A stretch of 64,000 nucleotides of DNA from Streptomyces montanisoli (lineage in GTDB: Bacteria; Actinomycetota; Actinomycetes; Streptomycetales; Streptomycetaceae): assembly GCF_017813245.1 (NCBI RefSeq), contig NZ_JAGIQL010000013.1:1-64000 (forward strand), written 5' to 3'. Of this stretch, positions 3,947 to 9,540 are shown one piece after another (the first letter of the stretch is position 1; each line of letters begins with the position of its first letter). The notes below the pieces were generated by a model. That model was not told where the DNA came from. It saw only the letters and a list, made by a program, of their open reading frames with translations, and searched no databases. Both the position numbers and the translations under genes were made by a program.

Positions 3947-4669
3947 CTAGGAGCCGGCGTCGGCCGCCCTCGGCTCCTGTGGGCCCTGGGCCGGGGCCGG
4001 GGCCGTGGGCCTGGCCGTGGCCGCCGCGCCGGCCGGGGCGCGCTGGGCCGTCAGGCCCGTCAGCACGAGCTGCGTGAGGCGGCGGGCCCAGTCGCCGTCC
4101 ACCGGCTCCGCGCTGACCAGCGTCCTGTGCACCACCGCGCCCGCGACCACGTCGAAGATCAGGTCGGTGTCGCGGGCCGCGGCCGCCGGGTCCGGCGGCG
4201 GCGGGATCTCACCGCGTTCCTGGGCGCGCTCGCGGCCCGCCACCACCAGGTGCTTCTGCCGGTCCACGATCGCCGTGCGGATGCGCCGCCGCAGCGCGTC
4301 GTCGCGGGTGGCCTCGGCGATCACCGCCATCAGCGCCGTCTTCGCCTCGGGCCGTTCGAGCAGCGCGCCGAACTGGCGCACCACCGACTCGACGTCCGCC
4401 GGCAGGCTGCCGAGGTCCGGCAGCCGCAGCTCGTCGAAGAGGACCGCCACCGCGTCGACCACCAGCTCGTTGCGGCTCGGCCACCGCCGGTACAGCGTCG
4501 TCTTTGCCACGCCCGCGCGCGCCGCCACGTCCCCCATCGTCAGCTTCGACCAGCCGAGTTCGACGAGCGCCTGCCGGGTGGCCGCCAGGATGGCCGCGTC
4601 GGCCTCGGGGCTGCGGGGGCGGCCGGTGCGCCCCTGGTGCATACCTTCGGGGCCGGTACGGGTAGGCAT
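3947..4669 (-). CDS. TetR-family transcriptional regulator
   Basis: A 240-residue repressor-type protein. The N-terminal HTH is clear: ILAATRQALVELGWSKLTMG, then DVAARAGVAKTTLYRRWPSR and NELVVDAVA. The C-terminal domain resembles the TetR_C_11/16 groups. The last 35 residues are Ala/Pro-rich and probably disordered. The ATG at 4667-4669 is used; a second ATG at 4640-4642 would remove nine residues. A perfect 17-bp palindrome lies at 4746-4762 between this gene and the divergent thioredoxin-TPR gene, so autoregulation is likely. The ligand is unknown. It is convergent with icmA with a 23-bp gap. Confidence 0.88.
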   Translation of the reverse strand: MPTRTGPEGMHQGRTGRPRSPEADAAILAATRQALVELGWSKLTMGDVAARAGVAKTTLYRRWPSRNELVVDAVAVLFDELRLPDLGSLPADVESVVRQFGALLERPEAKTALMAVIAEATRDDALRRRIRTAIVDRQKHLVVAGRERAQERGEIPPPPDPAAAARDTDLIFDVVAGAVVHRTLVSAEPVDGDWARRLTQLVLTGLTAQRAPAGAAATARPTAPAPAQGPQEPRAADAGS

Positions 4670-4924: not shown

Positions 4925-5899
4925 ATGCAGCCTAGGAACATGTCCATGAGCGGCGTCGTCGACCTCGCCGCGGTGAAGGCGGCCGGCGAGGCCAAGACGA
5001 AGGCGGAGCAGGCACGCGCCGAGACCGCCCGCCAGGGCGGTGCGGGCGCGGTGCCGGCGTCCAGCCTGGTGATCGACGTCGACGAGGCGGGCTTCGAGAG
5101 CGATGTCCTGCAGCGCTCCACCGAGGTGCCCGTCGTCATCGACTTCTGGGCGGAGTGGTGCGAGCCGTGCAAGCAGCTCAGCCCCGTGCTCGAACGGCTG
5201 GCCCTCGAGTACAACGGCCGCATCGTGCTGGCCAAGATCGACGTGGACGCCAACCAGGCGCTGATGCAGCAGTTCGGCATCCAGGGCATCCCGGCCGTGT
5301 TCGCGGTGGTCGCGGGTCAGGCGCTGCCGCTGTTCCAGGGGGCGGCCCCGGAGGCGCAGATCCGTCAGACGCTCGACCAGCTCGTCCAGGTCGGCGAGGA
5401 GCGCTTCGGGCTCACGGGCATCGCCGTGGAGGCGGGCGGCGAGGGCGCGGAGCAGCAGGAGGCGCCCGCGCCGCCGCCAGGACCGCACGACGCCCTGCTC
5501 GAAGCCGCCGTGCAGGCGCTCGACGAGGGCGACTTCGCGGGCGCCGTCCAGGCGTACCGCAACGTGCTGTCGGACGACCCGGTCAACACCGAGGCGAAAC
5601 TGGGCCTCGCGCAGGCCGAGCTGCTGGGGCGCGTCGGCGGGCTCGACCCCCAGCAGGCCCGCAAGGACGCGGCCGACAGCCCCGCGGACGTCGACGCGCA
5701 GCTGGCCGTGGCCGACCTGGACCTCGCGGGCGGCCATGTCGAGGACGCCTTCTCCCGCCTGGTCGAGACGGTGCGCGGCACGGCGGGCGACGACCGGGAG
5801 AAGGCCCGGCTGCGTCTGCTCGAACTGTTCGAGGTCATCGGCGGCGACGACCCGAGGGTGGCCGCCTCGCGCGCGGCGCTCGCGCGCGTCCTGTTCTGA
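4925..5899 (+). CDS. Thioredoxin-domain TPR protein (YbbN/CnoX-like)
   Basis: Cytoplasmic 324-residue protein with an N-terminal helical tail (1-45), a thioredoxin fold (about 50-160) and a C-terminal all-helical TPR-like region (about 190-320). The redox motif is WCEPC (residues 78-82), with the cis-proline segment QGIPAVFAV. In E. coli the same architecture (CnoX/YbbN) acts as a chaperone-linked redox holdase. Many such proteins lack CxxC, but this one keeps both cysteines, so disulfide chemistry is possible. ATG 4925 follows a GGAAGGGGGAGG ribosome site; ATGs at 4940 and 4946 are alternatives. It stands alone between a TetR operator with leader and a strong terminator. Confidence 0.85.
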   Translation: MQPRNMSMSGVVDLAAVKAAGEAKTKAEQARAETARQGGAGAVPASSLVIDVDEAGFESDVLQRSTEVPVVIDFWAEWCEPCKQLSPVLERLALEYNGRIVLAKIDVDANQALMQQFGIQGIPAVFAVVAGQALPLFQGAAPEAQIRQTLDQLVQVGEERFGLTGIAVEAGGEGAEQQEAPAPPPGPHDALLEAAVQALDEGDFAGAVQAYRNVLSDDPVNTEAKLGLAQAELLGRVGGLDPQQARKDAADSPADVDAQLAVADLDLAGGHVEDAFSRLVETVRGTAGDDREKARLRLLELFEVIGGDDPRVAASRAALARVLF

Positions 5900-5939
5900 C
5901 GAATTCCGAAAGGACCTGACGGGCCGTCGGGAATTGGGC

Positions 5940-5983
5940 GGGCCCGGATGCAGCGCGGAACGCACCGCGCTGCATCCGGGCCC
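5940..5983. terminator. Strong 19-bp stem terminator
   Basis: A perfect 19-bp inverted repeat (5940-5958 with 5965-5983) encloses a 6-nt loop AACGCA, starting 40 bp after the thioredoxin-TPR stop codon. It isolates that gene from the long leader that follows. Confidence 0.85.
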
Positions 5984-6178
5984 GTCGCGCGTTTTCGGAT
6001 GCCGGAGTTCCGTGTGAGGCGCACGGGAGTGCTGTGACCGGTGATTTGATGGAGCTGTGGGACGGATGTGACGATCCGGTGTGGCCGGGAGAGTGGGCGT
6101 CCGCGACCCGGTGCGGATTTGGCGACAAGGCGATGACGGGTTCATTGCTTTACCAAGACTTGACCTATGCCATCTTTG

Positions 6179-6191
6179 TTACTCGCAGTAA
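6179..6191. promoter_or_regulatory. TTACT-CGC-AGTAA inverted repeat
   Basis: Perfect 5-bp arms around a 3-nt spacer, 500 bp before the DUF6230 start. It shares the TTACT/AGTAA half-site with the dyad at 6306-6323 and with the icmA upstream palindrome. Confidence 0.5.
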
Positions 6192-6305
6192 ATCACCCTC
6201 TCCCTTCTGCCCGGTTTTCCGCATCGATCGTCCTACTTGTTCCAACCACCGGTAACACCCTGTGTGCCGGTCCGGCGCCCCTCGGTTGCCACCGGGTCGC
6301 CCGGC

Positions 6306-6323
6306 CGTTACTGACTAGTAACG
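6306..6323. promoter_or_regulatory. CGTTACT-gact-AGTAACG inverted repeat
   Basis: Perfect 7-bp arms around a 4-nt spacer. It is the second TTACT/AGTAA dyad in the same intergenic region and the better operator candidate of the two because of its longer arms. Confidence 0.55.
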
Positions 6324-6678
6324 AAGGCCCTTGTGTCCCGGCCGCGAATGGACCACCATCGTCGACGCTCGGTCCAATACCGCACCAGCACGGCAACCAG
6401 TCGCGTCACGTCGGTCCTGGGTCCCCACCGGGTGGGTCGGCGGGTCCAGTGAACCGCCGGCTCGGACAGGGGGGTTCCCGCCCAACAGGCGGGGCCTGTC
6501 CGAAGGTTGCGCCACGGCGCGATCAGTGGTTGTCGCTCGGGGGTGATCGACCGGTGGTTCGGGCGCGGTTCGCGCACGGCGAAGCGGGCGCTCTCCTTCC
6601 GAGGACGTAGCACTTCTCCCCATCCCATGGCGGGCCCACGTCCGCGTGGCGATGTACGTCCGAGAAGGAGGAAATCGC

Positions 6679-7329
6679 ATGGAGTCCCCAGTACGTGGTG
6701 GGACCAGATGGAAGCGCTTCGCGGTGGTCATGGTGCCGAGCGTGGCCGCGACGGCCGCGATAGGCGTCGCCCTGTCGCAGGGGGCGCTCGCCGCGTCCTT
6801 CAGCGTGTCGGGGCAGAACTTCAAGGTGAAGGCGAGCAAGCTCGTCGGCTACGGCTTCACCCAGTACGGAAACGTCGACTACGGCGTCAAGGACAACAAC
6901 GGGAAGAGGACCGCGCATCCCGTCGCGGTCAACGGCTTCACGCGCGCGAGCATCACCGACCTGTGCCAGTCGGTGGTCACGCCGGTACCAGGCATCGGTG
7001 ACGTCACTCTCCTGCTCACCGCGGGTAACAAGGGTACGGATGTCAAGGCCAAGAATCTCTACATCGACCTTGATGACCTGAGCACGACGAACGCCACGTT
7101 CACCGACATCAACATCGGTGTGGCGCAGGGCGCGACGAATGACGGCAAGCACGCAGGTGTCGCTCCGGGTGACCAGGACCCGAAAAAGAGCGGGGGGTTC
7201 GCCCAGGACGCGAGCAAGGCCGTGCTGACGGGTGTTCAGCAGCAGGCGTGGGCCACCACGGCGGGCACCTTCAAGCTCGCCGACCTCGGCCTGACGCTCA
7301 AGAGGGGCAACAACCCCTGTTACCACTAG
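6679..7329 (+). CDS. DUF6230 family secreted protein
   Basis: A 216-residue exported protein of a Streptomyces family that databases sometimes label cholesterol esterase without proof. A signal sequence spans about residues 9-36 (RWKRFAVVMVPSVAATAAIG, cleavage near ALA-AS). The mature part is Gly/Asn/Thr-rich and probably beta-structured. It has two cysteines in mid- and C-terminal positions and no Ser-His-Asp lipase motif that I can see. ATG 6679 has a near-perfect GAAGGAGGA ribosome site (6664-6672). It is the first gene of a three-gene operon with a DUF6114 membrane protein and a Ser/Lys-rich secreted protein. The function is unknown; a surface or lipid-associated role is inference. Confidence 0.8.
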   Translation: MESPVRGGTRWKRFAVVMVPSVAATAAIGVALSQGALAASFSVSGQNFKVKASKLVGYGFTQYGNVDYGVKDNNGKRTAHPVAVNGFTRASITDLCQSVVTPVPGIGDVTLLLTAGNKGTDVKAKNLYIDLDDLSTTNATFTDINIGVAQGATNDGKHAGVAPGDQDPKKSGGFAQDASKAVLTGVQQQAWATTAGTFKLADLGLTLKRGNNPCYH

Positions 7330-7454
7330 GCACTCGCCGGCGGGCGGGGGCAACGTGCCGCAGGGCATTCACCCGCGGTCGCGCACCTCGCCCGCCACCA
7401 CCTCAAACTCATGGCATTCCGCACGGTAATGCCGGTTCCAGGGAGCTGTTTTCC

Positions 7455-8045
7455 ATGAGCGCCGAGACCGCGGACACCCTCGTGCCCCAGGAGCGTGACG
7501 GCGGGTTCAGGTACTGGCGGCTGAGGTTCCGCGCCTGGCGCGGGCACCGGCCGTTCTGGGCCGGGCTGATCACGCTCGTCAGCGGACTGCCGATCGGATA
7601 CTTCCCGTACGCCCACCTTCACCTCGGCAACCTCACCCTCGCGATGTCCACGACGGCCGGCGCCGGATCGCTGATCATCGGCGTCCTGCTGGTGACGCTC
7701 GGCCTGACGATGTGGTTCCACTCCATCGTCCGGGTGTTCGCCGGCATCGCCGCGATCCTCCTCGCCCTGGTCTCGATCCCGGTGTCCAACCTGGGCGGCT
7801 TCTTCGTCGGATTCCTCCTCGCCCTCATCGGCGGCGCGCTCTCCGTGTCCTGGGTGCCCGAGAAGGCGAAGAGGCGGACCGCCGAGGACGAGGCCGCACC
7901 GGAGTCCGCCGGGATCGCCGAAGCCGCGGACACCGCAGACACGGACGCCGACCCGCTGCTGCCGGGCCCGCGCGCGGGGGTGGAAGCGGATGTGACGGAC
8001 ACGCGCACGGACTGGTTCAAGGGCGGGAGGCACAGTGCGGGCTGA
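7455..8045 (+). CDS. DUF6114 family integral membrane protein
   Basis: 196 residues. A charged N-terminal 30 residues precede four hydrophobic helices (about 37-58, 66-93, 97-112, 114-135), then a soluble Glu/Ala/Asp-rich tail from about 140. The helix pattern and the FRAWRGHRPFWAG entry fit DUF6114, which commonly sits next to DUF6230 in Streptomyces. Its last 11 bp overlap the start of the next gene, so translation is likely coupled. It could be a membrane partner or export partner for its secreted neighbours. No transporter or enzyme motif is visible. Confidence 0.8.
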   Translation: MSAETADTLVPQERDGGFRYWRLRFRAWRGHRPFWAGLITLVSGLPIGYFPYAHLHLGNLTLAMSTTAGAGSLIIGVLLVTLGLTMWFHSIVRVFAGIAAILLALVSIPVSNLGGFFVGFLLALIGGALSVSWVPEKAKRRTAEDEAAPESAGIAEAADTADTDADPLLPGPRAGVEADVTDTRTDWFKGGRHSAG

Positions 8046-9540
8046 CGACGACACGCGGCCGGTGCCCGGTTCCGCCGCGGATGTCGACCTCACGCGAGCG
8101 AGAGCCCGGCACGCGGCGCCGAGGAAGTCGCTGCTGACCAAGATCCACATACCCGCCGGCAAGGCCATGGCCCTCGCGGCGATGCCCACGGCCGTGTTCG
8201 TCGGCATGAGCCTTACGCCGAAGCTCGCCATGGCGGACGACAGCAAGGCGGCCCCGTCCACCTCGGGTGCCTGTGTGACCCGGTCGGACGAGCCCAGCGC
8301 CTCGGACTCGCCGTCGCCCTCCGCCTCGCCTTCCGACTCGCCGTCCGCGTCGGCGAGCCCGTCGTCCAGTGACGGCACGTCGTCCAAGGGCGGCAAGGAC
8401 AGCGGCAAGAGCGGCAGCGGCAAGGCTTCCGACGGCGGCAAGGCCTCCGGCGGCGGCTCGTCGGACCCGCAGCCGTCGGCGACATCCTCGGCGTCCCCCA
8501 CGCCCACGCCCGACCCCAGCACGTCGTCACCGTCGTCGCACAGCGGCAGCGGGGGCGGCGGCCTGCTCGGCGGGCTCGGCTCCGCGCTCGGCGGCCTGCT
8601 CGGCGTGCACAGCGACTCCTCGTCGCCGTCCCCGAGCGCGACGCCGTCCCACGACACCACGCCGAGCCCGTCCGCCTCGCACTCAGCGACGTCCTCCAAG
8701 GACAGCAAGGGCGACGGCGGCTCGTCCAAGGACACCTCGTCCAAGGACACCTCGGGCAAGGCCGGCGACGCGCTGGGCAAGACGGTGAAGGGCACACTCG
8801 GCGGGCTCTCCAAGGCCGCGAAGGACGCGGGAAAGTCCGCGTCGTCGTCGAAGTCGCCTTCCGCGTCGGGCTCGTCGGACAGCGGCAAGAAGGACGGCAA
8901 GGACGGCAAGGGCGACGGCTCGTCCGAGAGCGCCACCCAGTCGAAGGAACAGGCGATCAGGGACCTGCTGACGCACAAGGGCGTCAAGTTCAGCGACGCC
9001 ACGGCCGACACCAAGAGCGCGGACACCAAGGCCGGCAGCGGCTCCTGCGACGAGGGGCCCTGCGACCTGCTCCCGATCCTCAAGCCGCCCACGCAGGACG
9101 CCAACGCGCCCACCATGGCCGCCGACCCCTGGCACCTCCAGAGCAGCAATCTCAGCCTCAAGGGCCTGTGCTACCGGGGGCTCGTGGACATCAAGACCGC
9201 TTCAGGAGCGACGAAGCGGGTCATGAAGTTCACGGCGGACTCGATCGGCATCAAGGACCTGCACCAGACGGTCGACAACCGTGACGGCCATGGCAACATC
9301 GTGCGGCACACGGAGATCAAGACGAAGCCCGGTACCACCTCGACCATCGACGGCCCCGTGACCATGTACACGGAGAAGCTGTCGGGCAACCTGCTCGGCC
9401 TGCTGCCGATCACGTTCAGCCCGGACTTCCCGCCGCCGATCCAGATCCCGTCGGTGTTCTTCACCAACGCGAAGGTCGACCAGGCGGGCCAGTTCGGCGG
9501 CACGCTGAAGATGCAGGGCCTGCACAACTTCATCGACTAG
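8035..9540 (+). CDS. Secreted protein with a long Ser/Lys/Pro/Gly-rich linker and conserved C-terminal domain
   Basis: 501 residues. The N-terminal 42 residues are charged and cytoplasmic. A signal-like hydrophobic stretch (about 46-66) ends in LAMA-DD. Residues 75-300 are almost entirely Ser, Lys, Pro, Gly, Asp and Ala, with repeats such as SSKDTSSKDTSGK, and read as a disordered wall-spanning stalk. Residues 335-501 form an ordered domain (DPWHLQSSNLSLKGLCYRGL onward, ending KMQGLHNFID) with scattered cysteines. That domain is reminiscent of DUF6230, though I cannot prove homology by eye. The GTG start lies inside the DUF6114 gene. The function is not recognised. Confidence 0.75.
   Translation: MRADDDTRPVPGSAADVDLTRARARHAAPRKSLLTKIHIPAGKAMALAAMPTAVFVGMSLTPKLAMADDSKAAPSTSGACVTRSDEPSASDSPSPSASPSDSPSASASPSSSDGTSSKGGKDSGKSGSGKASDGGKASGGGSSDPQPSATSSASPTPTPDPSTSSPSSHSGSGGGGLLGGLGSALGGLLGVHSDSSSPSPSATPSHDTTPSPSASHSATSSKDSKGDGGSSKDTSSKDTSGKAGDALGKTVKGTLGGLSKAAKDAGKSASSSKSPSASGSSDSGKKDGKDGKGDGSSESATQSKEQAIRDLLTHKGVKFSDATADTKSADTKAGSGSCDEGPCDLLPILKPPTQDANAPTMAADPWHLQSSNLSLKGLCYRGLVDIKTASGATKRVMKFTADSIGIKDLHQTVDNRDGHGNIVRHTEIKTKPGTTSTIDGPVTMYTEKLSGNLLGLLPITFSPDFPPPIQIPSVFFTNAKVDQAGQFGGTLKMQGLHNFID

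Follow-up and report, generated by a model that had tools for sequence, protein, structure and literature searches.

The protein families DUF6230 (PF19741) and DUF6114 (PF19609) have no function in Pfam, and the che1 RNA (RF02935), a family of 91 positions, was reportedly described by Weinberg et al. in 2017. Secreted cholesterol esterases of Streptomyces are said to have been reported by Xiang et al. in 2006 and 2007, and their identity with DUF6230 is putative. The Mce-type importers of actinobacteria bring sterols and fatty acids to the membrane. Here we describe a locus of Streptomyces montanisoli that can be compared with each of these. It lies in a stretch of 64,000 nucleotides (hereafter the window), positions 1 to 64,000 of NZ_JAGIQL010000013.1, which is contig 35 of the 7.2-Mb genome GCF_017813245.1. 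Three genes, designated p1, p2 and p3, follow one another behind a long leader. They form one conserved module, and profile comparison indicates that the C-terminal domain of p3 is homologous to p1. We propose, with a probability of about 0.42, that p1-p2-p3 is one cell-surface module for acyl or sterol esters, that is, for lipid carbon sources.

Both p1 and p2 exceed the curated cut-offs of DUF6230 and DUF6114 by a wide margin. In the printed Pfam entries the two families are not linked as a system, and p3 matches neither of them. The initial annotation of this DNA regarded both families as lacking an assigned function; this holds for Pfam, where the function is blank, but overlooks the cholesterol-esterase family and the che1 RNA. 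The che1 family leaves out the paired palindromes and the ribosome-site hairpin found in this leader. Like the esterases of Xiang et al., p1 would be a secreted protein of Streptomyces, and a gene behind che1 has been listed under cholesterol metabolism; p1, however, has no classical esterase motif. Mce-type importers would do similar work, but p1-p2-p3 differ from them in having no match to an Mce, YrbE or ATPase family in Pfam. In the excerpts returned by a full-text literature search, the scope of which leaves most subscription papers outside, p1-p2-p3 was not found described as one system, and these excerpts do not speak of what the module does. The features of the locus are as follows.

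5900..6678, plus strand: leader of p1-p2-p3, without an accepted gene; conserved in blocks from about 6140, no frame conserved
6179..6191, no strand: operator-like palindrome TTACT-N3-AGTAA, unique in the genome
6307..6322, no strand: operator-like palindrome GTTACT-N4-AGTAAC, paired with the first in related loci
6463..6552, plus strand: che1 RNA (Rfam RF02935), 91.2 bits (gathering threshold 54.1)
6591..6671, plus strand: predicted hairpin with the p1 ribosome-binding site in its 3' arm; arms conserved, tip variable
6679..7329, plus strand: p1, DUF6230 (PF19741) with a signal-like start, relatives labelled cholesterol esterase; AlphaFold model
7455..8045, plus strand: p2, DUF6114 (PF19609) membrane protein
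8035..9540, plus strand: p3, with a signal-like segment, a Ser/Gly/Lys-rich stalk and a C-terminal all-beta domain (sequence and AlphaFold model)
9088..9537, plus strand: C-terminal domain of p3, homologue of the p1 domain (profile comparison with shuffles)
4925-5899: thioredoxin-TPR gene (trx), 5' neighbour of the leader
3947..4669, minus strand: TetR-type regulator (PF16859 and PF00440), syntenic, a candidate regulator only

All three genes are present where the initial annotation had placed them, p3 overlapping p2 by 11 nt. The non-coding DNA before p1, previously put at about 700 bp, measures 779 bp from the trx stop to the p1 start. For comparison we used the best 80 of 568 confirmed relatives from a contig scan (78 Streptomyces and 2 Actinacidiphila records).

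Homology of the p1 and p3 domains

Diverse profiles of p1 (107 rows) and of the p3 domain (62 rows) were built by iterated search over fetched loci, and no open frame was common to the two row sets. The profiles were aligned end to end by hhalign over 137 columns, with a score of 33.8 and a probability of 65.5. In 200 column shuffles (100 per profile) the best score was 18.9 and none reached 33.8, and the reversed profiles scored 15.1 and 13.0. The mature domain of p1 (pLDDT 86.5, pTM 0.82) and the last 150 residues of p3 (pLDDT 93.5, pTM 0.85) were both predicted with confidence by AlphaFold to be nearly all strand, the strands being very long; the helices of the p1 model are one of four residues and two of three. 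The strands come in the same order in both models, with lengths of 23, 17, 9, 9, 13 ... 26 residues in p1 and 23, 15, 7, 8, 19 ... 18 in p3. Under the sequence alignment, the strand state agreed at 83% of 138 aligned residues. Circular shifts gave a mean of 61%, and none of the 149 shifts was as good as the observed alignment. These results indicate that p1 and the C-terminal domain of p3 are homologous and share the same strand order, in line with the earlier proposal that they may share a fold.

The relationship is a distant one, seen by profile comparison only. p3 gave no match to Pfam or NCBIfam up to E = 1, and its C-terminal domain fell below the cut-off of PF19741, with no Pfam match up to E = 1. 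Foldseek found no credible relative among PDB structures, its best hits having E values of 0.019 (p1) and 0.053 (p3 domain). VIA-align, which cannot show a fold that Foldseek missed, found none either, with Z values of at most 2.9 (p1) and 2.5 (p3 domain), and a PDB sequence search gave no match. Because no credible relative was seen among solved structures, the predicted fold may be new, although a relative may have been missed. Secretins, an SMP domain and an Lpt protein appeared in the structure comparison with resemblances too weak to count as kinship.

Conservation of the module

The order trx-p1-p2-p3 was found in 79 of the 80 loci; the 80th ends at a contig edge just behind p1. Among 148 genomes of the class Actinomycetes, 28 carried DUF6230. 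DUF6114 exceeded its cut-off in 27 genomes, all inside these 28, the exception (G123) having a partial match; three further genomes showed DUF6114 matches below the cut-off alone. The p3 domain, searched with a 16-row profile, occurred in 23 genomes, all again among the 28. We therefore conclude that p1-p2-p3 is one conserved module. The initial annotation had asked for strict co-occurrence across Actinobacteria, and the co-occurrence found is nearly strict and in a fixed order.

p1 was present in all 25 genomes of the genus in one sample. In a sample of the phylum, DUF6230 was found in 14 of 198 genomes, with five weak matches. The weak matches (about 40 bits) fall in one family outside the class (G286, G314, G356, G376 and G386). 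Second copies without p3 occur in several genomes, including the source genome. The paralogue in the latter (L037:6997-8444, contig 368 of G000) is a DUF6230-DUF6114 pair behind a TetR-type gene. Alternating arrays of DUF6230 and DUF6114 were seen at five loci (L148, L150, L151, L168 and L169), with three p1 and two p2 genes in each of the first three. The last gene of an array was considered as a stalked DUF6230 protein and rejected, the frames showing ordinary p1 proteins in long GC-rich frames. Plasmid records held five p1 relatives, and p3 was not found in them.

p2, p3 and their natural fusions

p2 (7455-8045, 196 aa) matched DUF6114 with 114 bits against a cut-off of 27.9. It had been described earlier as a four-helix membrane protein; four helices can be counted by eye, whereas a simple hydropathy scan gives two peaks only. 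In each of 79 related loci, p3 has a start codon in frame at the p2 stop or ahead of it.

A survey of 35 fetched regions and the paralogue of the source genome, with one 1-kb region uninformative, showed DUF6114 fused with the p3 domain in a single open frame at 12 loci. Eleven of these belong to other genera (L146, L147, L149, L153, L155, L156, L158, L160, L161, L163 and L165), and the twelfth (L178) is a second-copy locus of the same genus. p3 was separate from p2 in five loci (L157, L172, L174, L175 and L176). An extra hydrophobic segment stands between the fused domains in 11 of the 12 fusions (L147 had none at the threshold), and in seven printed fusions it is followed by a stalk of low complexity that is mostly acidic, rich in Pro or rich in Ser. 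Since they are fused in nature, p2 and p3 appear to work together, and the view of p2 as a membrane partner of secreted proteins gains support. The topology of the fusions suggests that the p3 domain lies outside the membrane.

p3 starts with GTG at 8035, ends at 9540 and has 501 aa. Its stalk is longer than the roughly 225 residues first estimated: 297 low-complexity residues (67-363) with much Ser (26%), Gly, Ala, Asp and Lys (9%). The signal-like start is conserved, and the printed examples have an A-x-A-D-type site at its end. With Kyte-Doolittle values of 1.46 in the window and 1.38-1.75 over 79 loci, the hydrophobic stretch of this start is weak, which is more in keeping with a signal that is cleaved off than with a permanent anchor. 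Neither an LPXTG sorting signal nor a C-terminal hydrophobic tail was seen by eye in p3, which ends in the beta domain. In Streptomyces, p3 seems to have a signal that is cleaved and not to be anchored in the wall, and the idea of an anchored p3 loses ground.

The leader

Over 81 aligned sequences, blocks of conservation run through the leader from about 6140 up to the p1 start, many columns reaching 90% or more. A frame of 147 aa (6167-6610) crosses it, and a study of S. clavuligerus predicted a protein of 145 residues in the che1 region (PMC11678152). A stretch similar to the 147-aa frame exists in all 80 loci, the DNA being conserved. In the 72 loci with an anchor motif (8 more lack the exact anchor), this frame is open for at least 120 aa in 27, and the other two frames in 39 and 10. 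With this frame open in no more than 27 of the 72 and another frame in 39, the conservation does not look coding, and a small protein in the leader was rejected.

The initial annotation had called the leader dyad-rich, and two unique palindromes and a ribosome-site hairpin bear this out. TTACT-N3-AGTAA, sought with spacers of 2-3 bases, occurs once in the 7.2-Mb genome, and GTTACT-N-AC-N-AGTAAC occurs once without mismatch. TTACT-N3-AGTAA lies upstream of p1 in 72 of the 80 loci and TTACT-N4-AGTAA in 53, each nowhere else in those loci. Both are present in 50 loci, and in 48 of these they are 129 bp apart. A third palindrome, TTACCAA-AAC-TTGGTAA, is seen upstream of the others at 6150-6166 in the 81-row consensus, its right arm being degraded in the window. 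No regulator binding the palindromes was found, and the neighbouring TetR gene would be a guess.

The che1 RNA at 6463-6552 is a full-length member of RF02935, and no other Rfam family reached its threshold in the window. Among the 148 class genomes, che1 was found in 11, all of the genus, each time upstream of the DUF6230 domain and 256-315 bp away from it by the printed coordinates. None was found in the 137 genomes of other genera under strict filters by which weak matches are lost, and none exceeded the threshold in 12 further loci, including the paralogue of the source genome and L178 of the same genus. che1 is described as a common Streptomyces RNA without known function (PMC11678152), and it is listed before SLIV_11405 under cholesterol metabolism (PMC8079986).

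Two conserved segments, CTCTCCTTCCCGAGGACGTAGCACTTCTCC and GGAGATGTACGTCCGAGAAGGAGG in the consensus, can pair into a long hairpin that would bury the p1 ribosome-binding site; the window has one C fewer in CTCTCCTTCCCGAGGACGTAGCACTTCTCC and GGCGATG in GGAGATGTACGTCCGAGAAGGAGG. The hairpin of the window folds better than shuffles (z -2.6). Its tip varies in sequence yet folds on itself both in the window and in each of seven further sequences (z from -2.1 to -4.9). The rows for this analysis were chosen by an exact GAAGGAGGAAA...ATG motif, and identity there is partly by construction: 71 loci passed, 61 were left after removal of near-identical ones, and 52 were aligned with the window. The 9 of 80 loci left out by the motif still keep GGAGATGTACGTCCGAGAAGGAGGA in their printed sequences. 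The same blocks reappear in the 81-row alignment, which was made without such selection and has a few leader ends misplaced (shortest leaders 122-239 nt). None of 21 pairs changed on both sides; because the arms hardly vary, almost no covariation is testable, and the pairing is supported by conservation, complementarity and folding energy instead. The hairpin may act as a switch.

Residues of p1 and the esterase label

p1 starts with ATG at 6679 behind GGAGG, stops at 7329 and has 216 aa. It matches DUF6230 over the full profile with 179 bits (Pfam gathering cut-off 27.5). A single strong hydrophobic segment at the N-terminus and the nearly all-strand model fit a secreted beta-rich protein, as had been supposed.

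Relatives of p1 are labelled cholesterol esterase, and it is somewhat unlikely, in our estimate, that p1 is such an enzyme of a non-classical kind. Xiang et al. reportedly described cholesterol esterases secreted by Streptomyces. Proteins with this label turn up in several proteome and transcriptome papers, among them a study of S. scabiei in which extracellular proteins in suberin medium bear it, one of them being the most abundant listed extracellular protein of the lipid class (PMC5158115). A cholesterol-oxidase-like neighbour, described below, also fits. Over 107 diverse p1 domains the best-conserved polar residues are two Cys (98 and 99%), followed by possible catalytic residues, one Asp (89%) and three Ser (88, 82 and 82%); Ser and Asp are invariant in 45 close domains. 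However, His stays below 70% in every column of the 107 domains, and GxSxG is found in 10 of them against 19 expected from shuffles, that is, more rarely than in shuffled sequences.

The predicted model of p1 is not that of an alpha/beta hydrolase, so the conventional esterase fold that the initial annotation had named as its refutation was not found, and its remark that the label lacks a catalytic motif stands: no classical triad is conserved in the 107 domains. A classical alpha/beta-hydrolase esterase was rejected in view of the motif, the lack of a conserved His and the predicted all-strand fold. Because no classical triad is conserved, we lean to the view that p1 may bind and hand on lipid rather than cut esters.

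Expression and gene neighborhood

SCO5420 of S. coelicolor is a putative p1 orthologue. Labelled a cholesterol esterase, this gene was almost 37-fold up on Tween (PMC7494193).

The neighborhood was surveyed in 100 genomes of another family of the class, with a line drawn at 480 bits for cholesterol-oxidase-like proteins; three matches of 314-428 bits were dropped, and the profile was weakly positive in 6 of 14 control genomes. DUF6230 was found in 44 genomes, an oxidase-like protein (482-586 bits) in 63, and both in 31. The two genes are adjacent in 16 of these 31 (about 0.07 by chance), always divergent, with 408-521 bp from domain to domain. For one such neighbour the best PDB match was to solved cholesterol oxidases (84 bits). 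A cholesterol-oxidase-like GMC oxidoreductase was seen divergent from p1 at four loci of this other family (L149, L153, L160 and L163). Besides the oxidase, 20 frames in the flanks of 9 loci were housekeeping-type genes, and no other recurring lipid gene was found there. Of the earlier inference of a lipid or envelope cargo, the lipid part is thus backed circumstantially, by the Tween induction and the oxidase adjacency.

Proposed function and its alternatives

A lipid or sterol role, to which one expression result, the neighborhood and an unverified enzyme label point, would be the best-supported function, and the module is probably located at the cell surface. p1 would be a secreted, nearly all-beta domain contacting lipid outside the membrane, with p2 as the membrane partner of the module. 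p3 would carry a second, divergent p1-type domain at the end of a long flexible stalk, with which it could act in the cell wall or past it; other genera have this domain physically joined to p2. Control of expression might begin at the pair of operator-like palindromes and pass to the che1 RNA leader, in which the last hairpin would hide the p1 ribosome-binding site until opened.

Several observations speak against this proposal. The hhalign probability for p1 and the p3 domain is no higher than 65-70%, shallow alignments (45 and 49 close sequences) gave a short, weak profile match, and the best circular shift (0.812) comes close to the observed strand agreement (0.833). Five of the 28 DUF6230 genomes are without p3 (G068, G083, G091, G123 and G167; these have the lowest DUF6230 scores, under 90 bits), as is the paralogue in the genome of the window itself. 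The induction on Tween comes from a single transcriptome comparison, whose authors take an esterase for granted (PMC7494193). In S. scabiei a cholesterol esterase, a putative p1 orthologue, is named as not specific to growth with suberin, a lipid polymer (PMC4098958), although it is this protein that heads the listed extracellular lipid-class proteins in the other study (PMC5158115). A DUF6230 gene of S. albulus was picked for its moderate promoter, with FPKM (fragments per kilobase per million) values of 200-400 at all five time points (PMC12835213), a steady level that does not indicate strong induction. Proteins bearing the label, putative p1 orthologues, were up on xylose and xylobiose (PMC12772271). 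One of S. venezuelae, with no S. coelicolor homologue listed, was up in a nitrogen experiment (PMC3087709). The oxidase-like neighbours score 482-586 bits, below the NCBI cholesterol oxidase cut-off of 850; they were seen in one family only and are absent from this locus.

Next to the surface module for lipid esters and the non-classical esterase considered above, a more specific version can be formulated, namely an undescribed actinobacterial uptake of lipid or sterol esters in which two copies of a beta domain lacking a solved relative, the one free and the other on a stalk across the wall, relay lipid to the DUF6114 membrane partner or cut it for this partner, and a che1-type switch opens translation with lipid as carbon source. 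We regard this full scheme as unlikely.

It is worth noting another interpretation, that the module is structural or adhesive, with p1 and p3 held by p2 for the hyphal surface and the lipid link incidental. The long p3 stalk, the p2-p3 fusions, the missing classical catalytic set in p1, its presence in 25 of 25 sampled genomes of the genus and the steady expression in S. albulus (PMC12835213) would all agree with it, but the Tween induction and the oxidase adjacency are left unexplained, and we consider it likewise unlikely.

Finally, p2 as a dedicated export or maturation factor for p1 and p3 domains, with a cargo without lipid role, would suit the presence of DUF6114 above the cut-off in 27 of 28 genomes with p1 and the alternating arrays, but is very unlikely, since p1 and p3 have Sec-like N-terminal segments of their own and the p2-p3 fusion argues for a standing partner, not a passing exporter.

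Neighbouring genes

The TetR gene stands beside trx in 78 of the 80 loci, the remaining two beginning close to trx, and it is also present at three loci of another family. At four loci of other families (L146, L172, L174 and L175) p1 has kept both its methylmalonyl-CoA mutase and its thioredoxin-TPR neighbour, and at three of the four the TetR gene is there as well. An inverted repeat with arms of about 20 bp (5930-5992) directly 3' of trx is probably the trx terminator. Sub-threshold, miRNA-like Rfam matches at the same positions are spurious and come from this long repeat.

Implications

The anatomy of the module, obtained by computation as a gene set, a domain homology, natural fusions and a leader architecture, is well supported. 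p1 occurs in every sampled Streptomyces genome (25), yet the families of p1 and p2 have no function and that of p3 has no name. In this module two DUF families come together with a secreted orphan domain, an RNA without known function and a doubtful enzyme label, each of which had been a loose end.

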